A DNA stretch of 64,000 bases from Gordius sp. MW1 (lineage: Eukaryota; Nematomorpha; Gordioida; Gordea; Gordiidae): assembly GCA_964036665.1 (NCBI GenBank), contig OZ038526.1:36952001-37016000 (forward strand), given 5' to 3'. Both the position numbers and the translations under genes were made by a program. Positions within the stretch are counted from its first letter, which is position 1. Each line of letters begins with the position of its first letter. Under the pieces are notes generated by a model. It was not told the DNA's origin. It saw only the letters and a list, made by a program, of their open reading frames with translations, and did not search any database. Positions 1-53,800 of this stretch are shown one piece after another.

Positions 1-21
1 CCTAGGCCATAGTTTTGCCAT
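1..21 (-). CDS. Exon 1 (partial) of a histidine-rich secreted peptide gene
   Basis: Read on the minus strand from position 21, the sequence starts ATG and encodes MAKLWPR before leaving the window. The intact paralogue at 8890 starts MAKIMPR in the same position. The flank upstream of this ATG (22 to about 210) is also similar to the flank upstream of 8890 (8891 to about 9110), so the match covers both the start of the coding sequence and the promoter side. I infer another member of the family, whose exon 2 lies outside the window. Only seven codons are visible, so an intact gene cannot be shown. Confidence 0.6.
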
Positions 22-3371: not shown

Positions 3372-4057
3372 CTTCAGGTACAAGAACTTAGGTGTGTTTA
3401 ATATTGCATATACAGTATTTTTTAGATGGCCATATACATTACGATTTTCTTACGGAACCATATTTTTAATTTATTGTATCATGTTATTGTATGATTTTTA
3501 AGTTCCGTTCTACTCTGAATACTCATTAAGTTTATATATCTAGGTAAAAAATTTAGATTTTAGCGATATTATACTAGTTATTGTTTGATATTTTAAAATC
3601 ACTTTAAAAGCTAAAGATTTCAACATAAATAGATTAGTAGGGATGATCATCTTGTTAAACAATTAGCTTAAATTAATTATATAAGCTTTTGAAAAGCATA
3701 ACTTTTTTCTTAGCTCACTATGTTATTGGAAAATAAGTCTGTTAATTTGCCAAACATTACTAAGGTGCTGAAAAACTGTACTTTATTTATTCACCTTACA
3801 AGTTTGTGGGTTACAAAAGCTATTATAATCAAGCACACATGTCATTGAACTGATAATATCTATGATGTTAATTAGAGGTAATGTTATATCTGTTGATCAA
3901 GATACCATTTATAATATAATTTCCAAATTGGGTAAATTATCGAAAGATTCTTCGAAATTAGATACCAAAACTTAAAATTAAGAGTCCAGACCTCCGACTC
4001 TAGCATTGGCTCTGTACCTACCATGATGTCTATTATGGTGATTTACTACCATGATGG

Positions 4058-8376: not shown

Positions 8377-8890
8377 CTAAATTCCAAAATCTGCAAATTC
8401 CGCATTTAAGCCTCCTACCCTAGCGTTGGCTCTATACCTCCCATGGTGCCTACGATGATGATGATGGCTACCATGATGGTGATGGTGGTGGCTCCGCCTT
8501 TTGAACCTTTCAGCCATAGGAGCGTCACTCATAGAACCCGCTCCAAAAGGAACCATTGTTCCGTGGGATGAACCCATTGCCCCATGCATGCCAGAAGAGG
8601 TTTGCATGCTCGATTGAGTAGGTAACATAGTACTACTAGATTCCATCATCTTTGGACTTGGCGATTGTCCCATACATCCCGACGCATACACAAGAACCAT
8701 AACTAAACCCACCTTTTAGCACATAACTTTATAGCATTTTATACAAACGTTTCTAACTAAAAAAGCTAATCTAATATTAAAACATTTTAAAATAAAAACC
8801 AATAACAAGTAAAGACATTCAAGTTAAGGAAATTTTGTAGGGACTTACTTGAAAGGAAAGCATAGCCAATCTTGGCATTATTTTAGCCAT
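8377..8890 (-). CDS. Histidine- and methionine-rich secreted peptide precursor (two exons)
   Basis: Exon 1 is 8890-8849 (14 codons, starting MAKIMPRLAM), followed by a GTAAGT donor, a 136-bp phase-0 intron with an AAAAG acceptor, and exon 2 8712-8377, giving 125 residues. The joined N-terminus is a signal peptide: basic start, then a VGLVMVLVYA core across the splice junction. Residues about 30-83 are rich in Ser and Met with scattered His (SSGMHGAMGSSHGTM). A furin-type site FKRR lies at 84-87, followed by six His (89-94), Gly-Ser, four His (97-100), RRHHGRYR, and a C-terminus ending ADFGI. It has no cysteine in the mature part. I infer a secreted pro-peptide processed at KRR, with likely metal binding by the His and Met clusters. 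I do not recognise a known family. Confidence 0.78.
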
Positions 8891-9475
8891 CGCAAACTCT
8901 TATGATTGACTTAGAAAAATAAGGAGTCAAAGCAAATAAGAAACAAAATTAGACACTGTATTAATTTAACAGTTTTGCAAAGTATTAATAATTGTTTATT
9001 AATAATCTTAAATCATGACATATGTTAATTCAAAATTTATCTATATTTAGAGGCCTCACTTTTTAATTGCCGAACCCAAGGGGTTATTTTGGGAATTAAG
9101 GCGTATTACAAAATGTTCTAGTCAATAACTATTTTTAGTACCACTTTATCTGAAATGACAAGTTAAATTAACAAAATGATTAATAAGAGGTCTGCAATGC
9201 ACTTCAATGGGCCCCGATCAAATTAGATCCTTATTCATTTTTATTACAGATTCGTAAAAGTATTTTAAATTTATAATATTATAATTAGTATTCAGGTCCA
9301 AATCAAAAATAATAAATTTTGAAGTCGATATCAAAATTAGTACATTTAAAATAAATAAAATTTAGCCCAATTATAAATTTGTATTATTTTTTCTCCATAA
9401 TTTACATTATCGCATAGTAGAACATAAATAATGAAAAAATAGTAAAGTTAAAGTCAATTTTTCAGGTGATGGGAG

Positions 9476-9625
9476 TAGTTGTAAAAACGGCTGGATTTTT
9501 TGGTCGACCTTTGGTTTAACATATAACAGACCAAAGGTTCTTTGGTCAAACCTTTAATAAGTTTATGTTTAGTCGACTAAAACCTAAGGTCGACCAAACA
9601 AAACCCAGCCGTTTTTAAAACACTG
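9476..9625. mobile_element. MITE with ACGGCTGG ends (family A)
   Basis: Inverted ends TAGTTGTAAAAACGGCTGG and CCAGCCGTTTTTAAAACACTG enclose GGTCGACC and TTTAGTCGACTAAA palindromic blocks. The whole 150 bp can fold on itself. At least ten more copies lie at 42691, 43177, 44238, 45889, 46441, 47517, 53595, 54666, 55645 and 61940. This is the only copy well outside the SPT6 region. Confidence 0.78.
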
Positions 9626-9647
9626 AGGGGGGGAGGTAGGGTAGGGT

Positions 9648-9836
9648 CATGGTAGCCAGGTTTTGGATTAGGGGTGGGGGCGAAACGTTTAAAAGTTTAA
9701 TTAAGGGGGAGGGGGCGAAACTTAAATTTTTTAATTAAGGGTTTTTGCATTAATATTTTTTTTTCATTTAAGGGGGGAGGGGGGGGGGGGGGGTGCCGGC
9801 AGCCTCCCTGCCCCCCCCCCCCTCACTATGCCCATG
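9648..9836. mobile_element. GGCGTAGCCAGG-family MITE with long G and C runs
   Basis: Starts CATGGTAGCCAGGTTTTGGA and ends CACTATGCCCATG. Interior GGGGGCGAAACGTTTAAAAG and CATTTAAGGGG match the copy at 16927-17101. Flanks GGTAGGGT and TGTAGGGC are a plausible degenerate 8-bp duplication (6 of 8). Confidence 0.7.
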
Positions 9837-9954
9837 TGTAGGGCATATTAAAAACTTTCTATGAAAAGTTTCCCGACTCTGATGGAATTAAGAATGATTG
9901 ACATATATGTAGCAAATTTTGATAAAAAAAAGTGTTAAACACTATCCCCCGTAC

Positions 9955-10259
9955 CATGGGCGTACGCAGGGGGGGGGCCCCCAATTTAAAAAAAAATGTC
10001 AATACAAAAACCCTAACAAATTAAAAAAAAAATTTGTTTCCCCCCCCCCTAATTAGTCGGAGGGGAGCAGCCGGACCCCCTGCCCCCCCCTAATTTGCCA
10101 GGGGGGCGGGGGGTCTGGCTGCCCACACTGCCTAATTTAGGGCAGTTGCTTTTTTTTTGCTCTCAGGAAAATTTTTGGATGTCGAGACCTTTTTTTTTGC
10201 TCTCAGGAAAATTTTAATCTGCCCCCCCCCCCCTAATTCAAAACCTGCGTACGCCCATG
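9955..10259. mobile_element. GGCGTAGCCAGG-family MITE, perfect 8-bp TSD
   Basis: Inverted ends CATGGGCGTACGCAGG and CCTGCGTACGCCCATG are flanked by the perfect 8-bp direct repeat CCCCGTAC (9947-9954 and 10260-10267). The interior holds two tandem copies of a unit containing TTTTTTTGCTCTCAGGAAAA and several C and G runs. An 8-bp duplication is expected for hAT-type transposition; no coding sequence is present. Confidence 0.85.
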
Positions 10260-10381
10260 CCCCGTACCCTTCCAAAATGTTACCCCCTGCCCTCCCACTA
10301 GAAATAACATTAAAAAAATTGTTTAATTATTTTAGCTCTTACATTAATGCTTTTTATCTAACGATTTCTAAATACTATACA

Positions 10382-10546
10382 AGTGCGTAGTTAGGATTAG
10401 AACTAGAGGAGGGCAATTATGATTTAGGGATGGGCAAACTGTTAATGTTTTGAAATTTTAGCCATAATTATATAAAATTTTAAGTTTTCTTGGATCTAGA
10501 GGGGGGGGGGCAGCCGCCCCTTCCTGCTTACCCTTGGCTATGCTAA
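10382..10546. mobile_element. MITE, second subfamily of GGCGTAGCC elements
   Basis: Begins GTGCGTAGTTAGGATTAGAA and ends CCTGCTTACCCTTGGCTATG. The middle (GGGCAATTATGATTTAGGGA, then a GGCAGCCGCCCC segment) matches copies at 54094, 62790 and, reversed, 4321. The ends are eroded and no clear target duplication is visible, so the borders are approximate. Confidence 0.55.
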
Positions 10547-10567
10547 CGTAACGCTAATGATACTATG

Positions 10568-11214
10568 CAGGCGCGTAGCCAGGATTTTCTCAAGGAGGAG
10601 TAAAAATTCAAAAAAAAATTTCGACTATTTTATTTATAATGTAACAAAAATAAACTTCGCGTAGAATATATGCGAAACTTCAAGGCGCTATATAACTAAC
10701 TTTAAAAAAACTCTCATCTTTATTAATCAGAGCATTCTCTATCGCTTTTTTAACTTAAAAAAGAACATGGACCTTATGCAAGTTATTCAACTAGCAGAAA
10801 ATATTATCATTTAGGGAGAATTAAATAATGGCGGAAACATAAGCAAAATTATATGAGTTTGATCTAAAATAATTCTCAAGTTGCTAATAAGCGAAATTAT
10901 ACAGTCACTCAATTTGTTTACTTGACATTTTTTAGTGCAGCAAAATGAACGGTGTTTAAATAAAAAAAAAAGTTTTTCATAATTTACAATCAATGGTGGA
11001 AAATTATAATGGTGTTTTAGTAGAAATAAAATTCGAAAAATTGAATGTAGGTATTTATTATGTTTCCAGGCTTTAATAAGTGTCTCAAAATCTTTTATGC
11101 AACTAAACTATAATATTTTAACCCATTAAATCTAATTATTAATCAAAAAAATGTTCAAATTTTGGTCAAGGGGGTAGAAAAGTCTTGCTTTCAGCCCCCT
11201 TGGCTACGCGCCTG
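10568..11214. mobile_element. 647-bp hAT-like non-autonomous element
   Basis: Ends CAGGCGCGTAGCCAGG and CTTGGCTACGCGCCTG are inverted repeats. Flanks ATACTATG (10560-10567) and ATACTAAG (11215-11222) match at 7 of 8 positions, fitting a hAT target duplication. It has no transposase frame. It is the longest member of the family that includes 3128-3371, sharing the ACTAAACTATAATATTTTAACCC segment. Confidence 0.83.
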
Positions 11215-11521
11215 ATACTAAGTGATTTTAAGCAATATGTAAATAAGTAATCAAGACCTTTAATACACTTTAGTTGACAATGGCTCAACTTTAAGGCATT
11301 TTTAGAATATTAATAAGGTCTTTTAAAAAATTGCAAAACCATTTTACGAACACTAAATAGTTGTAAATTTTATTGTTATGTTATGAATGTTTTTTTGAAA
11401 AGTAAGTGTAATTAGTTACGCTACATATAATGTTTATAGAAAAAGCTGTAATAACGAAAATACATTATGAAACCTTGAATGACATTTACTGGGTATGTAT
11501 TTAATTTAGGAAGGTTAACTA

Positions 11522-11543
11522 CAGTAGCGTAGGGAAGGGGGAA

Positions 11544-11574
<31 letters not shown>

Positions 11575-11625
11575 CGGATTAGGATCCCACCCCCCCCCCC
11601 CGCCCCCCCCCCCCCCCCCCCATTG
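11522..11625. repeat. Facing G-run and C-run, decayed MITE
   Basis: After AGTAGCGTAGGGAAGGGGG comes an almost pure G run (about 11541-11572), a short TTCGGATTAGGATCC spacer, then a long C run (about 11588-11621) ending CATTG. The arrangement is a near-palindromic G/C hairpin. The AGCGTAGGG start suggests the remains of a GGCGTAGCCAGG-type MITE. Homopolymer lengths are the least reliable part of any assembly. Confidence 0.6.
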
Positions 11626-13033
11626 ACAAAAATAAATAAATTATTTGTTAAATTATACGGAAAAAATATTAATAGGAATCTTGTGTATGTTGCGGAAATA
11701 AAATATTATCTTAATTAATTTGATATTTAATTTTAGATGAAATTTACTAATTATAACATTATTTATACAAAAAAAATTATGTCCCGAGTGCGTGTTTTCT
11801 CATAATAAGAAATTAAATTCTTAATTATTTCCTAAAAAAGTATCTCAACCTCTAAATTAAACGAGGAAGATGACAAGCCAAATTTTAGCAGCGGCGCTAA
11901 CTTGGGCTTATAATTTGATTTAAACGGTCGTGGGCGGGACAATTATTGGTTCTGGTGGGAAATTTAAGCCTAAAAGGCCATTGCAAGTGTTTAGTTTGAA
12001 TAATGGCCCTAATTCTAGCAAACAGAAAAATTGGAAAGAGCTCTTTACAATTCTTTGAAGATATTATTAATGCATTTATGTCCAAAAACCCATCATAGAT
12101 ATTGAATTTATAAAATTGTAATATGTTTTTGTTTAATCAAAATTCTTTAACACAAAATTTACCCCCCCCCACCCCTTTAATTAGATAGTCCTACCTCCGT
12201 CACTACTTTATAAAAGCTTAATAAATAAAGAAGTGTTTTAATAGTATCACCGAAATTTTTTTTTGGAAACCCCCCCCCCCCCCCATGAGGCAATCCTGGC
12301 TACACCTATGGTTAACTAAAACCTTTTGAATACTTTTTCATTACATTACAGACTTGCCTTTATCTTATTAATGCAGTCTTAAAGATAAAAGCGTTGAATC
12401 AAAACTATAGATAAATTAGAGTACAGTTTAGTTATTCTATAATTTAAACTTATTACAATTCATATGGGGTCAGTGGGATCTGACCTAGTCTAAGGTTAAG
12501 ATACTATATATAAGTTCTACCTTAACTGTAGTTAAATTTTTTGCTTATATTGGCAATTAAATTTAAATAAAACTTATGCATAATTAAAATTCCCAAAAAT
12601 AGTCATTTTTCTTTTTCCCCAGGGCAATTGAATTGCTAAAATAGAGGTCAAAAATGTCAAAAAATGGTTAATTTTAACATCAGCCCTAGGCTAAAAACAA
12701 AACTTTAAAACTTATCATACAATAGAAACTGTTGTAACGATCTAATTAAAATCTTCAAAATGAAATGGACAAAGCCCGTTTTAAATTTTCATTTACCAAT
12801 TTACATTTCAATTATTTTTTGAATATGCTTTGTTATATTTAAACTTATTTGCTAATTAAATTGACGGTTTTTGTAAAGTATTTTTAGAAATAATGTGCTA
12901 ACGTCGACTCTAATTAACAACTAAGTTATAGTAAACTGTTAAATCATAAAAAAGGGCAAATTAATTGAAAATAAGGTTATTTATACAACACATTTTTTTC
13001 TTTAGATATAATTAATATTTTTAAACTTTCAAA
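11626..13033. other. Intergenic stretch; MITE fragment at about 12140-12318
   Basis: No gene is supportable. A C-rich fragment near 12160-12315 ends CCTGGCTACACCTATGG, the right end of a GGCGTAGCCAGG-type MITE. The last few hundred bases lead into the next His-rich gene; GGTTATTTATACAAC at about 12973 contains a TATA-like TTTATA but its distance to the ATG is unproven as a promoter. Confidence 0.4.
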
Positions 13034-13551
13034 ATGGTAGGCGCACGCAGATTATTCTTGGCCACATTTTTAGTAAGTGATAATTGTAACTTTTAAAATT
13101 TAAACGATAATGATCATGGTTAAGTTTTAGTAGAGTTTTTATTAAAATTAATTTTATGTTGAAATATATATAACTAATTATGGACTAAATAGTATGATAA
13201 TATAATTCGAATTTGCTTAAAACTCAATCAACACAATATATTTTTATATAAAATTTTGCATTTAAAGGCTGAGCAATATCGTTTTTTAATTTTGGCTTAT
13301 AAAGCTATATTAAAGTTCGTTTTTTCCCGTTTAAACAACTTTAGATGTTTAGCGTGGTAATGGTGCATTGGTCGGGATCGGGAGGAGTAAATGGATTAGC
13401 AGCTTCTGTAGAAATGGGAAAATTGAATGAACAAACAGAGCCTCCTCATTTGGTGCGATCGAGGCGAGACCACCACCATCATCATCATCACCACCATCAT
13501 CACCATCACAGTGGAGAAGGATTGCCAGAAATATTTATTCCTGGATTATAG
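13034..13551 (+). CDS. Poly-histidine secreted peptide precursor (two exons)
   Basis: Exon 1 is 13034-13072 (13 codons, MVGARRLFLATFL) with donor GTAAGT; the 272-bp phase-0 intron ends TTTAG; exon 2 is 13345-13551. The product is 81 residues. The joined N-terminus (basic MVGARR, then hydrophobic LFLATFLMFSVVMV) is a signal peptide interrupted by the intron exactly as in the 8377-8890 gene. A spacer of about 30 residues leads to RSRR (51-54), Asp, then 13 consecutive His (56-68) and a short tail SGEGLPEIFIPGL. There is no cysteine. His codons mix CAC and CAT, so the tract is not a pure trinucleotide repeat, which suggests selection on the protein. Function is inferred only: secreted, cleaved at RSRR, probable metal ligand. 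Confidence 0.78.
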
Positions 13552-15764
13552 ACAAGAAATTAATAATAATCAATAATCATAGAAATATACATTTATTTAA
13601 TTTCTAAATTTAATTATTAAAGAATTATTATTAACATCGTATTTTATGTTATTTTTTTGCAAAGAATAATATTTTTCCATTTTATTATATAAACGATTTT
13701 AAAGTTTAATATGTGTATTTCAATGTGAAGCTTAGAAAACTGCAAAATGTACACCATGACTTCTATGTGTTTTTGTCTTTAACATATCCAATGGCATAGT
13801 TAACTTTTCCTAGGGGTAAAGGTCTGGTAAAATTGTGCAAGCCAACTAATTTTACGTAAAAGATTTTTATATACTAAAAAATTCACAATATGGTATAATT
13901 TAAAAAAAACGATAAGATGTAAAAAATAGATATATTATGCTATGATAAAAAAAAAATAGTGAGCTTGTACAAATTATGATTTATAAAAGTTTACAAAAAG
14001 GATGTTCCTTATAAAATTTAATTAAGTTCTGGTTAAATCAAAAATATATCGAAATATTATAATAATTTTAGCCTCTGGCCGGGGTCAGCTAAAGTAGAAG
14101 TAAGGAACGGTTAGCATTAATTTGCAGAAAATTATTTAGCCAAGTTCGGAATCATCCGTTACTAAGCAACAATCTAGATAAATTGGCAAAAGAAATTCAC
14201 TGATATAGCAATCATTTAGAATTTTGGCCGGGATAGATAAAGTAGAAGTAAGCAACGGGCATCATTAATGTGCAGGGAATTATTTAACCAGTCTCGCAAT
14301 TATCCGATATAAAGCAACAACCTAGACGAGTTGCCTAAAGAAATTCATTAATAAAGGTAATCAGTCGTGCACAAAAACAATAATGGAATTTGGGCTCGGG
14401 CGAGGTCGAATTAGCGGCCATTAGCTAGTCTATTTGCGAAAGCAAAATGAAAGTCTTTTACAGAAGCACAAGCCCACGCTATTAAAATCCCGTATAAGTT
14501 TCCACGGCAATTATTAAAAAATTACAAGTTAAACAGAACGGACAGAACAGGACAACTAAAACGAGACCACACTTTCAGCGATTTTATTAATTAAACTTTA
14601 TTTTTTTAAAATAAACTAATAATCTGAACGAATTTACCATATAATCAAACTAAATTTTTTATTAGGCATATATTGCTGAATTTTTATTTTTGTTATCGTA
14701 TTTTCATATCTAAATTAAATTATCTTCCCTAAAATTCAATGTAGAAAACAAGCTCACAATTTTATCATGTCTGCAAATATGCCTAAAAAATTTAGATTGT
14801 TTATATTAGTTTTAGCTGTGTACAATTTGCAGAGTTTTGTGTTGTTCAACATATGACTCTCTATAGGCACAATCATTTGATAGGTCTATATGGGGCTTCC
14901 TCGTCTAGTTAAATTTGTGACAATAGCCATTTGAAAGTACCTACTTGCATTGTGCATTCATTATAGCTAAGCGACATCTAAATTTATTTGAAGATTGATG
15001 GGTTTACCTTTTATTTTTCTTTTCACTGATCATATAAAACTACTGTAGACTAGATTCAAATATTTATTTGAATTTAGTGTTATATGCCAAGCTTTGTTTC
15101 TTTGCTACGTTTCATCGCATGACAGATTAAGATAAGAGTTGTTGAATGTAAAAGTAACAAAATGTATGTCTAAGTAATGTTAGCCATTATAATAATCATA
15201 AAATTGCACTAATATTCGGACCTGGCCAAAAGCTCCGCCCGTGGACGGACCCGATCTGTGACTTGGTTGGTTTATATGGTACGCCTCAAACCTATGCTCT
15301 TATATTGCTTTCCCTGCTAAATACGCACAAACTATTGATTATTCGGTCATTTTAAAATAAAAAAACTAAACTTAATATAATATTATGAATATATATGTCT
15401 AAGAATATTTCCCTTTGATAAACTCAAGCTATGAGATTAACAGGTCGACGATAGTAAAATGAATTTTTTTTTAAATTTTATTACATATAATTTTAAAAAA
15501 TTGCTTTAGGGGAGGGGGGCTTTGGCCCTTACGGCCCCCTAATTTTATCATTATAGATTATTAAAATGCATTTCATAAAATAACATATAATTTTATTTAT
15601 ATAGTTTTTCTAGAATTAAAATATTAACAAACTTAAATAATAAAATATTGACTTGAATAGGTGTTTACTTAACTAAACAACATTTAAATTTTAAAAGACA
15701 ACCAATAATTTAAACATTCAAATAGTTTAGAGATTGTGATTGAAAAATATTAACATCCATTTAA
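13552..15764. other. Intergenic; dispersed repeat at about 14070-14530
   Basis: No gene is seen. From about 14070 to 14530 the sequence is a diverged copy of about 28495-28830, sharing CCTCTGGCCGG, GCATTAATTTGCAG, AATTATTTAGCCA and TTTGGGCTCGGGCGAGG. It also has an internal near-duplication (about 14071-14215 and 14222-14350). The last about 40 bases of the window (63960-64000) match its CACAAAAACAATAATGGA-TTTGGGCTCG part. Its class is unknown. A GGGGAGGGGGGC fragment at 15510 is another decayed MITE. Confidence 0.5.
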
Positions 15765-17227
15765 CACTTCGTAGGTCGGGTGGGGTCATCCCAAGCCATT
15801 TAAAAAATGCTGTACAAAATAAATTAGTGAATATTACAATTTCGTTTTTTCAGTAGCTTAACAAAATTTACCCCAGAATATCTCTGCAAAATTTGGCTAG
15901 TTTTTATCCAATTGTTTTTAAGATAGAGTGCGTTTTAGATGCCCAGGGTCTTCCACGACCCCACCTTCCATAAAATCAAAAAATGTATTTTTAAAACCTA
16001 TTTTTGTAAACCCATTTGTGAAGAAATTTTTTGTATACATTTCTTTTTATTTAAAATATTCAAATTTTAGATTTTAACATGATACTTTTTTCTCGTGATA
16101 TTTCAAAGTGCTTATTTGTGTGATTTTTCCCACATTTTTTGATTTTTTAATATGTCTAATCTTAAAAAGTGCAGAATATATTATAGTTCTTCTTCTGAAG
16201 ATGGTATATAATAACATTTATAACATTTTATCAAGTAATTCTTGATGATTCTGATGATTATATTTACGTGAGTAGTCATGAATCTGAGAGTGAGTTAACA
16301 GGAGATTAAGATGAAGAAGAGTTAATTGATGTGCCTAACAAAAATAGTTACTTTTATAGGAAATAACTTAGAAGCTTTTATTATATGATATATTTCAAAG
16401 GGAAAGAGAATACTAAGTTGCACAAAAAATTGTCCTAATAAAAATGTTAGAACAAGGAACATAATTTTTATTGCATTTAGCTGGAGTAAAGTTATATGAA
16501 CGGGCAGCCAAAACTCTTGATTGTTTTAAAATATTGTACTTATTGCAGATGGAATAGTTAAGATTATAGTGAAATTTAGCAAATTGTGACTATATTGTAC
16601 GTATAAAATGTCTGTAAAATTTTTCATTTAAATATCGCCCTATAATATTTAAATTTATAATAATATGAGTTGAGACCAATAGTAACTTTTTAAAATAAAA
16701 GGCCAAAAATTGCTTAAGTTTGAACATCTCTATTTTCTTTGTTTTTATGTTATTTTATACCAAATTTTTCACATTTATAGTTTCAACCTTCTTTTATATA
16801 ATCTTATTGATTAAACCATAAAATAAAAATTTTTTTTTTGATATGAGCCAAAATAGTCATTAGGGGAAAGATTTTGGGGGTTGCTCTAATTATAGGTATA
16901 AAATATAAATCACTTGATCAAATAGCCATGGGCGTAGCCAGGTTTTGGATTAGGGGGGGGGGGGGCGAAACGTTCGAAAGTTTAATTAGGGGGGGGGGAG
17001 GGCAAAACATATTTTTTTCATTTTTAAGGGTTTTAGCATTGAAAAAATCTTTTTTTCTCATTTAGGGGGGGGGGGGGCGGCCCCCCCTGCTTACGCCAAT
17101 GCAAATAGCCATGTTAATATATTAGTGAACGTATAAGAGTTGAAATATTATTCTTGCAAATTTTGACAAGTTTATATTATAAAACACCTAAGTTATAGCT
17201 ATTTAATAACCCCAAATACCATCGGTG
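15765..17227. mobile_element. piggyBac-like defective element
   Basis: The left end is CACTTCGTAGGTCGGGTGGG after TTAA (15761-15764). The right end is CCCAAATACCATCGGTG before TTAG (17228-17231). A second copy in an SPT6 intron (40043-41594) has matching ends and interior, e.g. TTTTTTCAGTAGCTTAA and TTGCAAAATTT-type blocks. TTAA targeting and the GGGGTCATCCC subterminal motif fit piggyBac. An acidic relic (DDSDDYIYVSSHESESEL, about 16248-16305) may be the transposase N-terminus, followed by a stop. Nested MITE at 16927-17101. Confidence 0.6.
16927..17101. mobile_element. GGCGTAGCCAGG-family MITE, perfect 8-bp TSD
   Basis: Starts CATGGGCGTAGCCAGGTTTT and ends CCTGCTTACGCCAATG. It is flanked by a perfect 8-bp duplication CAAATAGC (16919-16926 and 17102-17109). 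Three G runs lie inside. It sits within the piggyBac-like element and is therefore younger. Confidence 0.87.
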
Positions 17228-17414
17228 TTAGCATTTTACGGTTAGTATTTAACTTACAAAATTTGAAGATTATGCTGCGGGCTATACTAATTTTAGTTAT
17301 TATAAGCTTTTGGAAAGCCGGTATAAACCTTAGAGAGGGTTAATGCAATGTGCTTATTCATTATAAAATGAATAATTAATATGGATGAGGATAAAAATAA
17401 CATTAAAATTGGGG

Positions 17415-17422
17415 TATAAAAG
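17415..17422 (+). promoter_or_regulatory. Probable TATA box of the third His-rich gene
   Basis: TATAAAAG lies 73 bp before the start codon at 17495. This leaves room for a transcription start about 25-30 bp downstream of the box and a 5' UTR of roughly 45 bp. It is inferred from the motif and position only. Confidence 0.45.
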
Positions 17423-17494
17423 ATAACAATCCTAATTTTATCATAATCTGTTGTAATTTTTTGGGCAATTTTAAAACAACTCCCAGCATAGAAA

Positions 17495-19846
17495 ATGACA
17501 AACGCTAAACGATTAACTTTAACCCTGTGTTTGGTAAGTTTATTAGATTAAATTCAATTTTTTCAATTTTACATTTTTTAATGTCTTTATATAATTGGTA
17601 TCCTTTTTTCTATTATATAATTATAACCTATTATATTAATACATAACAAAAATATTGTTAAAGTTATGTCTCAAATATTTTTTGATTTACATTTTTATTG
17701 AACGTAAATCGGGATAGGAAAGCTATATTAAAGCTATTTTATAAGTATCAACAATATCTGCATTATTAAATTTTATTTTAAAAATATTATTTGTTAATCT
17801 TAGAAGTCTATTAGTTTAAAATAAATTAAGTTTTAAGTTTAGTTATACCAAAAATTTTGAAACTTAATTTTTTGTTATATCTCATCAGGGCTTTTTGAAA
17901 TCAGCATTTTTACAAATTAAATCTTCAAATTTAACACATTTTCACATATGAAATAATTTCATTAGTGTATTTTTTAAATTATTTTAATAAGAAAATAACC
18001 TAAAGGCTTAAATTTATTGTACATATGTTAAATTCTAACTAGCAATTGTCATGCATTAGTTCATTAGGTTGTAAAGGCAAAGCTTTAATATACACATATC
18101 TTACAAAGCCTAAAAATATATTTTTTTTATTCATGAGTATAATTAGGGGGAAGAAGAAAAGGGAAGCTGCCCCTATTCCCTAATTTATAAAATAACATTT
18201 ATAATTAAAACATTATTTTTCATCTCAAAATCACAGACTTCTTGCCACGCCCCTCCCGCCAAAATTTTAATAATGGTTACGCCCATTATTAGGTTTTTAA
18301 CTTCCAAGTGCCATCCTCTAATGCTCATTATAAAGTTCATTATATTTATCCTACCTTAGTTTTATTCCCTTAGTCTTATAAAAATTCTTTTCTTCTATAA
18401 ATATTAAGTTATTACCCCTCCCCCCGGTGCTATATAGATGCATACAATTATTGGGTGCACTCTTCTTGCATGACATTAAAGACATTCAATGTCAAACTTC
18501 AATGCTTCATCGCTCAGTATAGTAAGTTGCCGTTGGCGATTCACACTTTTTAATTCAAAATTATTGTAAGATTATTAATCATATTTAAGCAATATCATCT
18601 AATCACAATCAATCATCCGATTGATTTTGTAACCTTGCAAAATTATCTCGTGTCATCCTTACTTATTACAAATGTAATTAAAATAAAATATTATTTTTCC
18701 CTTCATAAAGCTGCTAAATCATAGTTATAAAGTATTGTTCATCTTTATATTTTATAAGATAAAATCTAAAAGGGAATTTATACCTTTGACTTACGCAAAA
18801 AATTTTAGTAATGATGACACAGTAAAAGATAGACAAAATTTAAAAATCACTTTTCCCTAAAATCCTAAACATTATTTCTTATTAGCAAATAAGTATTCAA
18901 AACTTAATGAAAGCTACATTATGTTTGCCAATCAATATTAAGTCTTAATTAAATTTTAAGCCTCTGCAAATTTGTTAGAGATATTTTTTAATAAATTGCA
19001 ACATTGATTTTAAATCTCAAAACACTGAAGCTTTTCCATTTTGGGCGTTCATAGTAAATAATATTTGACTTAGTGAATTAAGAGGAGGAGGATTTATAAA
19101 TTAAACACTAACTAAATAAATTTTTATCGCTTCAAAAACTGCAAATTTAAATAATAAAATTAAGGATTTATTTTTTCAGATGTCCCTTTATGTTTTTATG
19201 ATGGTAGAACATTAAAAACAAACTACACTTCTTTTAAAAACTACTGTAGTAAAAAAGTTTGTGTTTAATAACTAAAAAATAAGAACAAATACCAGCCTAT
19301 AATGTAATAATTATAATTAGCTTGTTTTTAGGTCTTAATCTTTAATGAGATATCACGTATTAAATAACAACACTCGTATACAACTTCATCTCCAATCACA
19401 AAGAATCAAGCATAAACTACTCTCAATGGGCTTAGCTAAAGGGGGGGGGGGCAGGGAGGGGGGCTGCCCCTTTCTAAATTATAAAACTTGTTGAAATTTA
19501 TTAAAATTCTGGCTAAAATTTATTTGCCCCTCCCTAAATCATTAATGCCCCCTCCCCTTAAACCCAATGCTGGCTACCTCATGCTAATCTCATTGACTTT
19601 TTACGTCTTTAGTGTTGACAAAAATCGAGCTAAATTTTGGACTATTCATAGGTACTGAGCGTGGTTTTGGCGCATATGTCCAGCGGTATTGAGGGGGCTG
19701 TTGTTGGTCAAGGTGAGGATTATGCCCAATTGTCCGAAACTTCGGTCAATAGAAGGGTTAAACGTAGACATCATCACCACCATCATCACCATCATCATCA
19801 TCACCACCACAGGCATCACGGAGGAAGTGGAACAGTCATCATCTAA
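17495..19846 (+). CDS. Poly-histidine secreted peptide precursor (two exons, long intron)
   Basis: Exon 1 is 17495-17533 (MTNAKRLTLTLCL) with donor GTAAGT. The 2118-bp phase-0 intron ends CATAG, and exon 2 is 19652-19846 (from VLSVVLAHM). The product is 77 residues. The signal peptide is again split after codon 13. The spacer GIEGAVVGQGEDYAQLSETS leads to RRVKRR (47-52), a strong furin-type site, and then 14 consecutive His (53-66), Arg, two His and GGSGTVII. No cysteine follows the signal peptide. AATAAA at 19968-19973 is a suitable poly(A) signal. The intron holds decayed MITEs near 18140-18290 and 19425-19592. Identity with the other two genes outside the plan is low, so the gene model rests on matching splice position, phase and domain order. 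Confidence 0.77.
19425..19592. mobile_element. MITE in the intron of the third His-rich gene
   Basis: Starts CAATGGGCTTAGCTAAAGGG and ends ATGCTGGCTACCTCATG. GCAGGGAGGGGGGCTGCCCC and TTGCCCCTCCCTAAATCATT match the second GGCGTAGCC subfamily. No clear target duplication. A related, more decayed fragment lies at about 18140-18290. Confidence 0.6.
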
Positions 19847-21850: not shown

Positions 21851-24312
21851 GAGTTTTTGCTAAGTATTTTGTTCAAATTGCTAAGTATTTTTAGCGTCAT
21901 TGCTAAGTATTTTATTCATTTGCTAAGTATTTAATTCGTTTGCTAAGTTTTTAAATTAATGCTAAGTGTCAAATTCAAATGCTAAGTATTTTATTCATTT
22001 GCTAAATATTCAAATAAATTTTGCTAAGAATTTTATTGTTTTGCTAAGTATTTTATTTATTTGCTAAGTATTTTAATGTTTTGCTAAGTAAAGTATTTAA
22101 ATTATATGCTAAGTATTTAAATATATTATGCTAAATATTTAAATTATTGCTAAGTATTTAAATAAAATGTGCTAAGTATTTAAATAATTTGCTAATTATT
22201 TAAATAAATTATGCTAATCATTTAATTATATATTAGGTTTATAAATATATTATGCTAAGCATTCAAAAGATTTTATAAATTTTAAAACAAATTACCCCCT
22301 AATTTACGAGAAAAAAAATTTCAATGCAAAAACTTTGAAAAATTAAAAAAAATTATGTTTTGCCCCCCTCTAAATGAACTTTTAGACGTTTTGCCCCCCC
22401 CCCCCCTAATCCAAAACCTGGCTACGCCCATGATGCTAATGCTACTTATAAAATTATATGGCAAGGTTATCCACTTCTAGTTGTAGGTTCTCAGATCTTG
22501 ACAAAAAATTTCATCCCTTGAGGGTTTGTGTGGCTTCTCATGAAACTGAGGAAGACTTCAAGTTCATATTTCAAAGTTTGACTAATGAGGTCATGAAATT
22601 AAGTAATAAAAATCCAGTTTTTAAAGATCTTGTCACTGATGCAGCCAGTGCAATTCATAATGCTTTTAAAGCTTCTTTGGGGATAAAATGGTTGTGGTAT
22701 GCTGGGCTCATTTCAGAAGAAACATAACAAAAAAAGTATTTAACTCAAAATTTATAATTATATTATTCTGGAATAGGTGATGTTAGTTGACAAGCACTAT
22801 CAAGATGAATTAATTGAAGAAATTGACAAGCTATAACTTTGTCAGAATGAAAATGTGTTTCTGAAAGCAACAAAATTGTTCCTTTCTAAAATAAGACTTA
22901 AAAATATCTACATTTATTGATTATTTTAAGAAGGAATGGATCAATAAGAATAACACATGGTACACTGTTATCGCCTTTATACTCCAACCACAAACAACTG
23001 TTTGAAATCAACGAATAGAACAATAAAAGATTATTATCCGTTAAGGGAACGAATCCCTCTTGCTCGATTTAAAACTGTTGCAATGGATATGGTTAAAAGG
23101 TGGACTGTATATTACCAATTACAACAAGTTCTCATTTCAACAAGGCTTGGACAGAAAGCTACCAATGGCCAAAGCTCAACAAAAATGCCATAATGTACAA
23201 CACTAATAATATAAAAGTTTATGTTGTACCAGCCAAAATAAGTCAATCAATAAATCAGGATACAAGAATCAGAATAGATGACTGGGCCTCCTATGAGGAT
23301 TTCACAAAGCAAAATTTTAAGGCCTGGTCCATAACCTTCCTTGAAGAAAGCCATATGTGGCAAAAGGGTCAATGCAGTTGCCCCTCATTTCACAATAATT
23401 ACATCAAGCATTTAATAGGGTTAGCCCTAACACTAAAATTATGCAAACCCCCTATGGAAGCTAAAAATGTCACAATAGGAGAAAAAAGAAGACGAGGAAG
23501 ACCTTTCTAAAGCTAAAAAAGCTTTGATAGTCCAATAAATATATATACAAGCCACCGTTATTATAATTATATATTGTAGTTAAATAAAATCTCTATCAAT
23601 TATCCTATTGGCTGTTTAGATTAGTTTATATGTAAAGCCATTTTAGAACATAAAGGGTATTTCTTCACCTATAAATAAATAATCAGAATTTTTTTATTCA
23701 AAACTAAAATATATTTTTTTAAATTATAACAATTAAAATTGAATTACAATTTTTAACTATAAATTTTGGTAGTTTCGTAAAATAATTCCCATTAAAACTT
23801 ACCTTCAAATTTTTCACTTTTTTGTGTCATAAATAAAACTTTGAATTAAAAAAACTTAGTAATTTAAAGTAATAACTTATCACTTCAAAATAGAAAACCT
23901 AGCATTTTAAAATTACAAACCTAGCATTTTAAAAATTAAACATTTTCTTTGAAACAAAAACTGTGCCCTTTTTAGCTTTTTATATATTATTTATTATCTT
24001 ATATTTTTTAAATACTTAGCATTTTGATTAAATTCATAGGTCAAAATTATTTAAATAAAATACTTAGCATTATAGTAAAAGCTTAGCATGTCAAAATAAA
24101 AACTTAGCAATTTAAAAACTTAGCATTTAAAAATAAAAAAGTTAGCATTTAAAAATTAATGCTTAGCATTTCCTTTAAAATACTTAGCATTTAGATTAAA
24201 ATACTTAGCATAAAATACTTAGCGTTTTTTTAATAGAATACTTAGCACTTTAATTAAAATACTTAGCATAAATTACTTAGCAATTTGTAATTATTTACTT
24301 AGCAGTTAAATA
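21851..24312. mobile_element. Decayed Mutator-like (MULE) element with inverted terminal arrays
   Basis: The left side (21851-22270) is an array of about 20 copies of TGCTAAGTATTT with variable AT spacers. The right side (about 23890-24310) is the same motif reversed (AAATACTTAGCA). Between them lies a broken MULE transposase (22441-23538). A GGCGTAGCCAGG-family MITE, reversed and left-truncated, lies at about 22290-22432, right against the start of the transposase remnant. I could not fix the 9-bp duplication expected for MULEs, so the borders are approximate. Confidence 0.7.
22441..23538 (+). pseudogene. MULE transposase with SWIM-type zinc finger, frameshifted
   Basis: The reading switches frame several times. 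Segments in order: NATYKIIWQGYP (22437 on), then DLDKKFHPLRVCVASHETEE, then TDAASAIHNAF with a probable catalytic acidic residue, then after a +1 shift at about 22688 MVVVCWAHFRRN, the C-x2-H motif typical of MULE transposases. Near the C-terminus CSCPSFHNNYI-KH resembles a SWIM finger that has lost its third cysteine. The chain ends KRRRGRP and, after one more shift, SKAKKALIVQ and a stop. At least three frameshifts and internal stops (e.g. 22725) mean it cannot encode an active enzyme. The first Asp of the catalytic triad appears as Asn here. Confidence 0.75.
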
Positions 24313-50800: not shown

Positions 50801-53800
50801 ATTTTTCTCAAAAGACATCATTGTCGCAAATTTAAACGTTTTCTGCGATCAACAAATGTATCCATAAAAGCTAATTCTTGAAGAATGTCTTTGTTTATCA
50901 AAAAACTATTGAGCTTTATCACATTACCGCCCCATCTTGTTGGACAGTGGATTTAAAGGTTATTGTTCGGTTTTTGTTAGGTTTTTCATTGAAGGTTGAA
51001 GACAAAATTGTATTAAATTTTATATATTTATTAATTTTGTTTAACTTTGGCTGTTATATAGTTTGGATAGTGGTGACTTTATTGCAAATATCTTAAATTA
51101 ATAGATTAAGTCCGTGTGCTGCACAGCCAAAGCACTCAATTAAAAGAAGTTGAGATTTAATTATTTCCCAGACCTTCTTCATATTTATTGTCCGTTACAA
51201 ATGCAATGCACTTTTGAGTACCAATTTCTTGCATTACCTTGAGAAATTCACTAGGTATATACTCACCAGGGTGGGCATTCGACCCTGTGTCTATAGATTG
51301 TAGAAAAATGCGTTTTGGTGTCATTATAATAAAATTAATTATAGACTCTCCCCTAATATTCGTCCATCCATCGCTGACCAATGTAAAATTAGAGCCTGAT
51401 TTTAGTTTTTCATTTATAATTGTTTTAATCTTGTCAAATTGAACATTAAGCAAGGAACCTCCTATTGCATTTAGATTTAAAAATGTCCTTACATAATTCT
51501 CAGTTATATTAAACTGACAGTTGGACATATAGATAGCCAGTGCAAGCTTTTCATTTGACCATTCTTGTTGCACTGGAGTCATGCTATCGAAGTACTGATT
51601 AATATTTGATGTAGATTGTTTTGAAGTAATTAAATTTTATGTTAACACAGGTATTTTTTCAGTGGGGTGTTTGTCTTCCACCACTGCAGAAATTGTAGAT
51701 GATTTTGGGGAAATTGAAAAAACTTCGAATTCTAAGCATCTTTTTTCCCTTGCATACTCTGGACATTTATGGATATGGGTAAACATATTTGTTGGGTTAG
51801 GAAGTTCTATTAAAGATTGCAATAATTGCAGATAGCAATAAAACCTTTCTTATTGGAGGATATATGCCTAGAAAAATGTTTCCAGATATCAGATGGTTTT
51901 TTGGCACCTTTTTATGAAAGGAACTAATTTAAAAATATTTTTAATAAGTTTTAATTATCAAATCAATATTTAGATATTTACAAATAAGTAGACAAAAGTT
52001 TTACATGAATAAAAGTGTCCAAAATGAATACAAAGTTTCATTTAAATTATATTTATTTTACATGTAAGTGTGTGTGAATTTAAATCAAAAATTATGGTGC
52101 TAAATTAAATTAAAAGTCAAACAGATTTAACTAAATGTTAATTTAAATTTCAAGGTTAAATTGCTTATATGAATTTATTTGAGCTTACTGTGTGTGTGAA
52201 GTGGAATTGAAAATTATGGTACTAAACTAATTTAATGTCAAACAGATTAAACTAAATGTTTATTTAAATTTACATATATGTGTAACTAACATGAAATATG
52301 GCAACCGAAATTTCAAAGTTAAATGCTAGTTTAATTTTTAATGTATTTTTTCTAGAAATAAGTGTTAGAAAATAGTTTCAAGTAAAATAACAATAGGCAA
52401 AAAAATGCTAAATATAAGTTACCACGAGGAAAATATGAAACTCTATATGATTAAAATTAGTTAACAAATAAAATAAATTTTATGCAAAAACTAAAAAGCA
52501 TTAATTTTTTAGGGGAATTTATCGTAGGGGAAATACCCATAGTGCCATCTCTACTCGTGCCTCATCAATTTTGTAATAAATTTGTATTTCTGCGTCAAAA
52601 TTTACTTTGCTGTCCCCTAAATTCGGCATCTTTTAATTTCAGAGATAATTTTTTTTGTAGCATCCATTATTTATACCATAAAAATAGATAAATAGTTCCT
52701 TTATAAATTCTATGCTTCATGATTAGGAATTTTATGCTTTGCAATTTCTAAAGTTATGGAAACTACTTTTATTTGAAAACTTTATGGATGAGAATTTTAT
52801 TGCGCAAATAACTTTTTTAGGAAATTTATAAATTTTTCGATCATGAAAACGATACAATTTGGCTAACTTGCTACATAATTTTGACCTAGGGTTAAACAAT
52901 TTTTCGGAAACGCCATACTACCTATTTCTAAGGTCCAAGAACGTGTATGACTTTATGTATAAGAAATTTAGGGTAAAAATAAATAAATCCCTGACTAAAC
53001 ACATGAAAAACACAACTGTGAAATTGTTATATAATATTAACCCTAAAAACGACAAACTGTTTTTGACTCCTTAGACCTTACACTATATACCAACTTCGTT
53101 TAGCTCGTTTTCGATCGAGCACCAAAACACCATCTACCGGTGGGTTCGGCCCATACGAAACCGACCTGGCCCGAGCTCTGACCCGCATATTCGTTGACCG
53201 GGTCAATGCTACGGGCGTAGACATCAATGCTGCCCTCGCCCGTTCTCGGAAAACATTAATCAATTCCCGCTCAAACGCTAGTTCGGGGGCTTACGATTCT
53301 GGGACCTTGCTCCAATTTTGCTGCGGGCTCGGGCCGCGAAAAGCGGCCGGCCTACTTAAAATCCTTAGGCAGCGTGGCAATGGGCCCGGCTCTTCGGGCA
53401 CGGTCCCTAGGCTGGAAAATCGAACCCAACTTGTTACGGTTTGTCACATGGGCCCCAAAGTTTTCGTTAATTGTGCGGGTTTCGTGAAAATAGACACTGC
53501 CGCCTTAGCGCTCTTGGAAGAAGAAGAAGGTCGAAAAGGGGGTAGGTCCCTTATAGCACCAATTTTGTTCGCAAACTAATAATACACTCTAGATTAGTGT
53601 TGTGGCTGGGTTTTGTTGGTCCACCTTTGGTTTTAGTGGACCATACATAAAGAGAGCAAAGGTGGATGGAGTTTGTTTTTCTTAGTCAACCTTTGAGCTT
53701 ATTCCAAATTTGAAAAATAGAGCAGAGTGGATCCTTAGTCTTAATTAAACCGAGGGTCGACCCAACAAAACCCCTTTTTACAAACTATCCAAATTTCAAT

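Follow-up and report, generated by a model that had tools for sequence, protein, structure and literature searches.

Clustered genes for predicted secreted precursors with a furin-type motif just ahead of a polyhistidine run in the hairworm Gordius sp. MW1

A stretch of 64,000 bp from the genome of the hairworm Gordius sp. MW1 (Nematomorpha; assembly GCA_964036665.1, contig OZ038526.1, positions 36,952,001 to 37,016,000), hereafter the window, holds three small genes, A, B and C, whose predicted products combine a signal peptide, a furin-type basic motif and a run of histidine (His) residues. The window is close to one end of this 37.4-Mb contig (here C8), in an assembly of 211.8 Mb with eight large contigs. 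Rebuilt from the sequence, each gene consists of two exons separated by an intron that starts with GTAAGT, ends with AG, is in phase 0 and falls inside the signal peptide. Gene A (minus strand, 125 amino acids, order RFKRR-S-H6-GS-H4) has its exon 1 at 8849..8890 (MAKIMPRLAMLSFQ, the first half of the signal peptide), a donor GTAAGT from 8848 down and an intron of 136 bases; exon 2 (8377..8712) encodes the remaining signal peptide, a Met-rich pro-part, the furin-type motif RFKRR (8494..8508), the His run H6-GS-H4 (8455..8490) and a C-terminal tail. Gene B (plus strand, 81 amino acids, order RSRR-D-H13) has exon 1 at 13034..13072 (MVGARRLFLATFL) and exon 2 at 13345..13551, the latter covering the remaining signal peptide, a pro-part, the furin-type motif RSRR (13456..13467) followed by D, 13 His (13471..13509) and the tail SGEGLPEIFIPGL. 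Gene C (plus strand, 77 amino acids, order RVKRR-H14) is built likewise, with exon 1 at 17495..17533 (MTNAKRLTLTLCL) and exon 2 at 19652..19846, in which the remaining signal peptide and pro-part precede the furin-type motif RVKRR (19754..19768), 14 His (19769..19810) and a tail. CAC and CAT codons are mixed in the runs of both B and C.

A scan of the 4.5 kb 5' of exon 2 for phase-0 ATG...GTRAG exons under a loose hydropathy limit gave a single exon-1 candidate for gene B, which is the proposed one, and two for gene C, one of them the proposed exon. Searching the whole window on both strands gives 11 exon-1-like candidates of 9–19 codons, 4 of which (one nested in another) are the exons proposed for A, B and C. 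Signal-like N-termini were assigned by heuristic thresholds of our own, not by a dedicated predictor, and all four models tested (A, B, C and A2, a copy of A with which A is not independent) pass, against 3 of 137 null open reading frames. AATAAA or ATTAAA is present within 400 bases downstream of each of the three genes, which is weak support because the DNA of the window is so rich in A+T.

Searching the genome with protein A revealed the copy A2, 82% identical, across the left edge of the window. According to the protein search and the comparison of the paralogues, the start of its exon 1 (MAKLWPRLAMLYFQ, donor GTAAAT) is at 1..21 (C8:36952021..36951980, minus strand) and its exon 2 lies to the left of the window (C8:36951825..36951490, minus strand), beyond an intron of 154 bases. 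Because A2 has its own exon 1 ahead of exon 2, the two-exon structure is common to A and A2, and both exon 1 and the intron position of A are matched. Over 123 codons the two copies show 31 synonymous and 25 non-synonymous differences (proportions pS 0.385 and pN 0.087; rates dS 0.54 and dN 0.09), a dN/dS ratio of 0.17 (Fisher p 2e-9), on which a chance or repeat origin was rejected for the pair. The A/A2 lineage is a conserved protein-coding gene under purifying selection, and this is our firmest evidence that A works as a protein gene. The intron is well aligned over 54 bases only (76%), parts of the flanks are alignable at 72–82% and the locus overall is 73% identical over 840 columns. The same search found, at 3975..4043 (minus strand), a decayed fragment from the C-terminal part of another A-type copy, 78% identical to A over 23 residues.

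With protein B as the query, two weak matches appeared on contig C6 (E 0.7 and 3.7) that, when read, are open frames of the same plan; a third was found with C6-2 as the query. The second exons of these three C6 copies start at 21788739, 21793271 and 21765697 (minus strand). C6-2 reads ...KSKRSL...RVKRKSKSHHSHHHHHHHHETEVIIPGGTYGTLG, C6-1 is 84% identical to it and C6-3 has a divergent end after HHHHHNH. The dN/dS ratio is 0.30 for C6-1 versus C6-2 (p 0.003), 0.28 for C6-1 versus C6-3 and 0.42 for C6-2 versus C6-3. A strongly hydrophobic exon-1 candidate in C6-3 was rejected, since it is absent from C6-1 and C6-2, and a looser exon-1 scan of C6 gave ten rows, all short or distant. C6-1 and C6-2 (C6:21788449-21793271) have two basic sites, KSKR and RVKR, and could free a 17-residue middle peptide in addition to the His-rich one.

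A strict R-X-[K/R]-R motif stands 1–4 residues ahead of the His run in all seven copies read (the decayed fragment excluded), against 6 motifs among 7998 null residues. The genome has two predicted convertase loci, one on contig C2 and one on contig C7, from matches over cut-off to the convertase P domain (P_proprotein; E 1.2e-21 on C2, in two pieces on C7). With the cut placed behind the final basic residue of the motif, the peptides predicted to be released from the six copies computed are 25–38 residues long, with 9–16 His (28–64%) and no Cys. The earlier note, made from the window alone, had described three two-exon genes at these coordinates with His runs of 6+4, 13 and 14, and the rebuilt models are as it described them; the multibasic site that it placed ahead of the His run recurs in every copy read, and the signal peptides that it saw on the joined N-termini are borne out by the heuristic. 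Its copy number of three holds for A, B and C, but further copies exist, namely A2, the decayed fragment and the three on C6.

The His runs of B and C are far longer than base composition would produce. Under a first-order Markov model of the window, which ignores microsatellites, 4.5e-5 runs of 8 CAY codons (CAC or CAT) and 3.5e-13 runs of 13 are expected over both strands of the 211.8-Mb assembly. A genome scan for 8 CAY codons gave 39 overlapping matches that collapse into 5 places, three of which belong to the set (B, C and C6-2). The runs of B (13) and C (14) are evenly mixed in CAC and CAT and are the longest such runs in the scan, the C6-2 run is 8 codons of pure CAT, and the two other places with at least 8 CAY codons, both on C2, consist of 11 CAC codons and of 28 codons that are nearly all CAT. 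With 6 CAY codons the scan gave 66 matches in 20 places. Four of these are A, B, C and C6-2, and C2:3637795, C2:22595794 and C4:7943231 are among the other 16. Controls with the pattern written backwards gave 935 matches (8 codons) and 1014 matches (6 codons) in other simple repeats; match counts inside repeats are lower bounds.

No close relative was recovered in the libraries searched. Among 5.8 billion proteins, no candidate of 0.55–1.75 times the query length had three 5-residue words in common with protein C. Of 1631 candidates scored with a profile of six sequences, two reached E ≤0.1, the His-rich proteins P0001 and P0002 (E 1.1e-4 and 1.3e-2). Like the hairworm set, both have a hydrophobic N-terminal stretch and His runs; by our own reading they look like exported bacterial proteins, and they were rejected as homologues and taken as composition matches, being without R-X-[K/R]-R directly ahead of His and without likeness outside the His run. 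Pfam (A, B, C and C6-2) and NCBIfam (A, B and C) gave no match over the curated cut-off, and the gene B protein minus its His run gave none in the PDB up to E 10. In the literature, no such peptide family is named in the titles and abstract openings among the matches listed, with subscription papers and preprints outside the scope. The earlier note knew of no described animal family with exactly this plan, and the family libraries, the protein set and the PDB comparison support it. We do not claim absence from other hairworms, because the protein set may or may not include published hairworm proteomes. Secreted His-rich metal binders are already known; what appears unmatched in the libraries searched is a putative furin motif just before up to 14 His.

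Nothing seen in the surroundings of the window bears on the role of the peptides. Downstream of the cluster lies a many-exon gene for the transcription elongation factor SPT6 (37762-61229, plus strand, outer limits by eye), with two exons matched to solved SPT6 structures and one carrying an HHH_7 domain. There are two transposon remnants, a MULE transposase-like frame below cut-off (22452-22727, plus strand) and a DUF659 frame above cut-off (51157-51636, minus strand) that we take to be of the hAT type. Short elements with poly-G/poly-C runs and a GGCGTAGCCAGG-like edge, seen by eye at ~9780-9830, 11544-11621, 17060-17090 and other places, are apparently a mobile element family. CCCTAA (TTAGGG) repeats occur at 6 of the 13 contig ends examined; the starts of contigs C4 and C9 and the right end of C8 have a TGTCCGTCCGT-type satellite, on either strand, in place of TTAGGG. 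Contig C12 (14.8 kb) is the mitochondrial genome, and its COX1 is 95% identical to that of Gordius sp. VVA-2019 and 80–87% identical to those of two Gordionus species and Parachordodes, followed by insects at ~67% (among the best 120 of 8000 matches). In its nad5/nad6 region, peptide blocks look alike on both strands by eye, which fits the coding palindromes described for hairworm mitochondria (PMC6649704). The animal is thus a gordiid hairworm, a parasite of arthropods.

On balance we lean towards reading the genes as a tandemly duplicated set of secreted precursors that would be cut by a convertase to release a His-rich peptide binding Zn or Cu outside the cell. Each precursor would run from signal through pro-part, R-X-[K/R]-R and His run to a short tail; a furin-like convertase in the secretory path would cut at the basic motif and free the predicted Cys-free peptide of 25–38 residues (28–64% His), and outside the cell its His run may bind Zn or Cu, so that the metal would be sequestered, buffered or cross-linked. 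In A and A2 the Met-rich pro-part (9 Met in 57 residues in A, 7 in 59 in A2) would also fit copper, since in composition it resembles extracellular copper-binding stretches. Histatins and alloferons are His-rich, and the CTR1 ectodomain is an extracellular stretch rich in Met and His; gene A is like the CTR1 ectodomain in composition, and the architectures of histatins, alloferons and CTR1 are not known to match. In snakes, pHpG peptides are secreted, carry a His run, bind zinc and inhibit metalloproteinases in vitro (PMC12108757). The hairworm peptides resemble the pHpG peptides of Atheris vipers in having an uninterrupted His run in a short, here predicted, secreted peptide, a likeness of plan only. 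They differ from these vertebrate venom peptides, in which His is joined to a Gly run, by having GG in C, SGEG in B and GS in A and no Gly run, and by the furin motif just ahead of His. The predicted cut, the His-run zinc precedents and the Met-rich pro-part lead us to favour extracellular Zn or Cu binding by the released peptide. Extracellular metal binding is the best-fitting role that we infer; sequestration, hardening and host action are not separable from sequence.

Several results weigh against this account. B and C offer no close pair for a selection test (pS 0.77, saturated). Because exon 2 carries much of the hydrophobic core, exon 2 of A, B and C would also yield a signal-like N-terminus with 3, 1 and 3, respectively, of the 7 remaining exon-1-like candidates of the window. 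No phase-0 ATG...GTRAG first exon is common to the three C6 copies. The evidence for convertases comes from the P domain. The pattern RR, 0–6 bases and 5 His is not enriched genome-wide, with 13 matches against 7 in the backwards control (of the 13, the 9 outside the family were set aside, 6 being out of frame and 3 in frame without a signal-like frame); a further search gave one more place, at C1:15175632. Finally, in segment-wise comparisons with 2000 shuffles per test, the pro-parts and tails of B and C are not related (1392/2000 and 222/2000 shuffles), and neither A versus B/C nor C6 versus the others is clearly above shuffles outside the shared plan, the best between-group scores being C6-1 tail versus B (91/2000) and A versus C signal (93/2000).

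In the same comparisons A and A2 are related in all three segments (0/2000 shuffles reach the score in each), as are the signal regions of B and C (z 8.9, 0/2000). As judged from these alignments, A and A2 are clearly homologous, as are the C6 copies with one another and the signal regions of B and C, and between groups only the architecture is common. The shuffle results leave either one family in which the less constrained parts have changed past recognition, or two to three origins of one plan. We infer the first, which the common exon structure, the clustering of A2, A, B and C within ~20 kb and the furin motif favour. Common descent of A, B/C and C6 together is not shown by sequence beyond the plan.

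An unlikely alternative is a structural or adhesive role, in which the His-rich parts would cross-link through Zn or Cu in the cuticle, larval hooks, cyst wall or egg-string glue. Small tandem families are common among structural secretions. The His-rich jaw proteins of Nereis are secreted, bind zinc and harden the jaw (PMC13120676), and the hairworm proteins are like the nereid Nvjp-1 and Nai11527 in being His-rich, from a worm and, by prediction, secreted. The jaw proteins, however, are large structural proteins rich in Gly and His that lack the plan of a short precursor (one of ~53 kDa, from a partial sequence, has 29% Gly; PMC13120676), whereas the hairworm precursors are 77–125 amino acids long with a furin-type motif.

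We think it distinctly unlikely that the products are pH-switched, membrane-active (antimicrobial) peptides, with a His run that carries no charge at pH 7 and turns cationic below pH 6. Small tandem precursors that keep the signal and diverge in the rest, as B and C do, resemble antimicrobial families, and the predicted released parts of A and A2 have five Lys/Arg each. However, Lys/Arg are few in those of B (0), C (1), C6-1 (3) and C6-2 (1), and selection in the A lineage is purifying, not diversifying. A proposal of slightly lower standing, and a speculative one, is that the peptides are released by a convertase and sent into the insect host, where they would take up Cu or Zn and blunt host enzymes that depend on metal, for example phenoloxidase, the copper enzyme of melanisation, or metalloproteinases.

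We give marginally less credence still to a regulatory peptide precursor with an active short tail and the His run as a spacer. The paired KSKR and RVKR sites of C6-1 and C6-2, which would free the 17-residue middle peptide together with a C-terminal one rich in His, speak for it, as do the IIPG/FIPG-like tails in B, C6-1 and C6-2; against it, no Gly amidation signal directly precedes any basic site (by eye), and tail likeness between groups is weak (B/C6-1 91/2000, B/C6-2 313/2000 shuffles, others worse). Neutral expansion of CAY repeats within unselected open frames is scarcely credible: slippage does happen, because the runs contain partial 9-, 12- and 18-base periods (repeat finder), vary from 4 to 14 among copies and are pure CAT over the 8 codons of C6-2, but the dN/dS of 0.17 in A/A2, the mixed CAC/CAT codons in A, B and C, the basic motif ahead of the run in 7 of 7 copies and the pure CAC and nearly pure CAT make-up of the two non-family runs of at least 8 codons all stand against it.

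Molecular data on the hairworm phylum are sparse, and its life inside insects is unexplained. Should the peptides turn out to be released and to bind metal, as we favour, hairworms would have a natural counterpart of the laboratory His-tag, a candidate whose part in metal handling, in the hardening of tissue or in immune escape could be tested directly. If the host-directed proposal is true, metal uptake would let so large a parasite stay unmelanised in the body cavity by simple chemical means.

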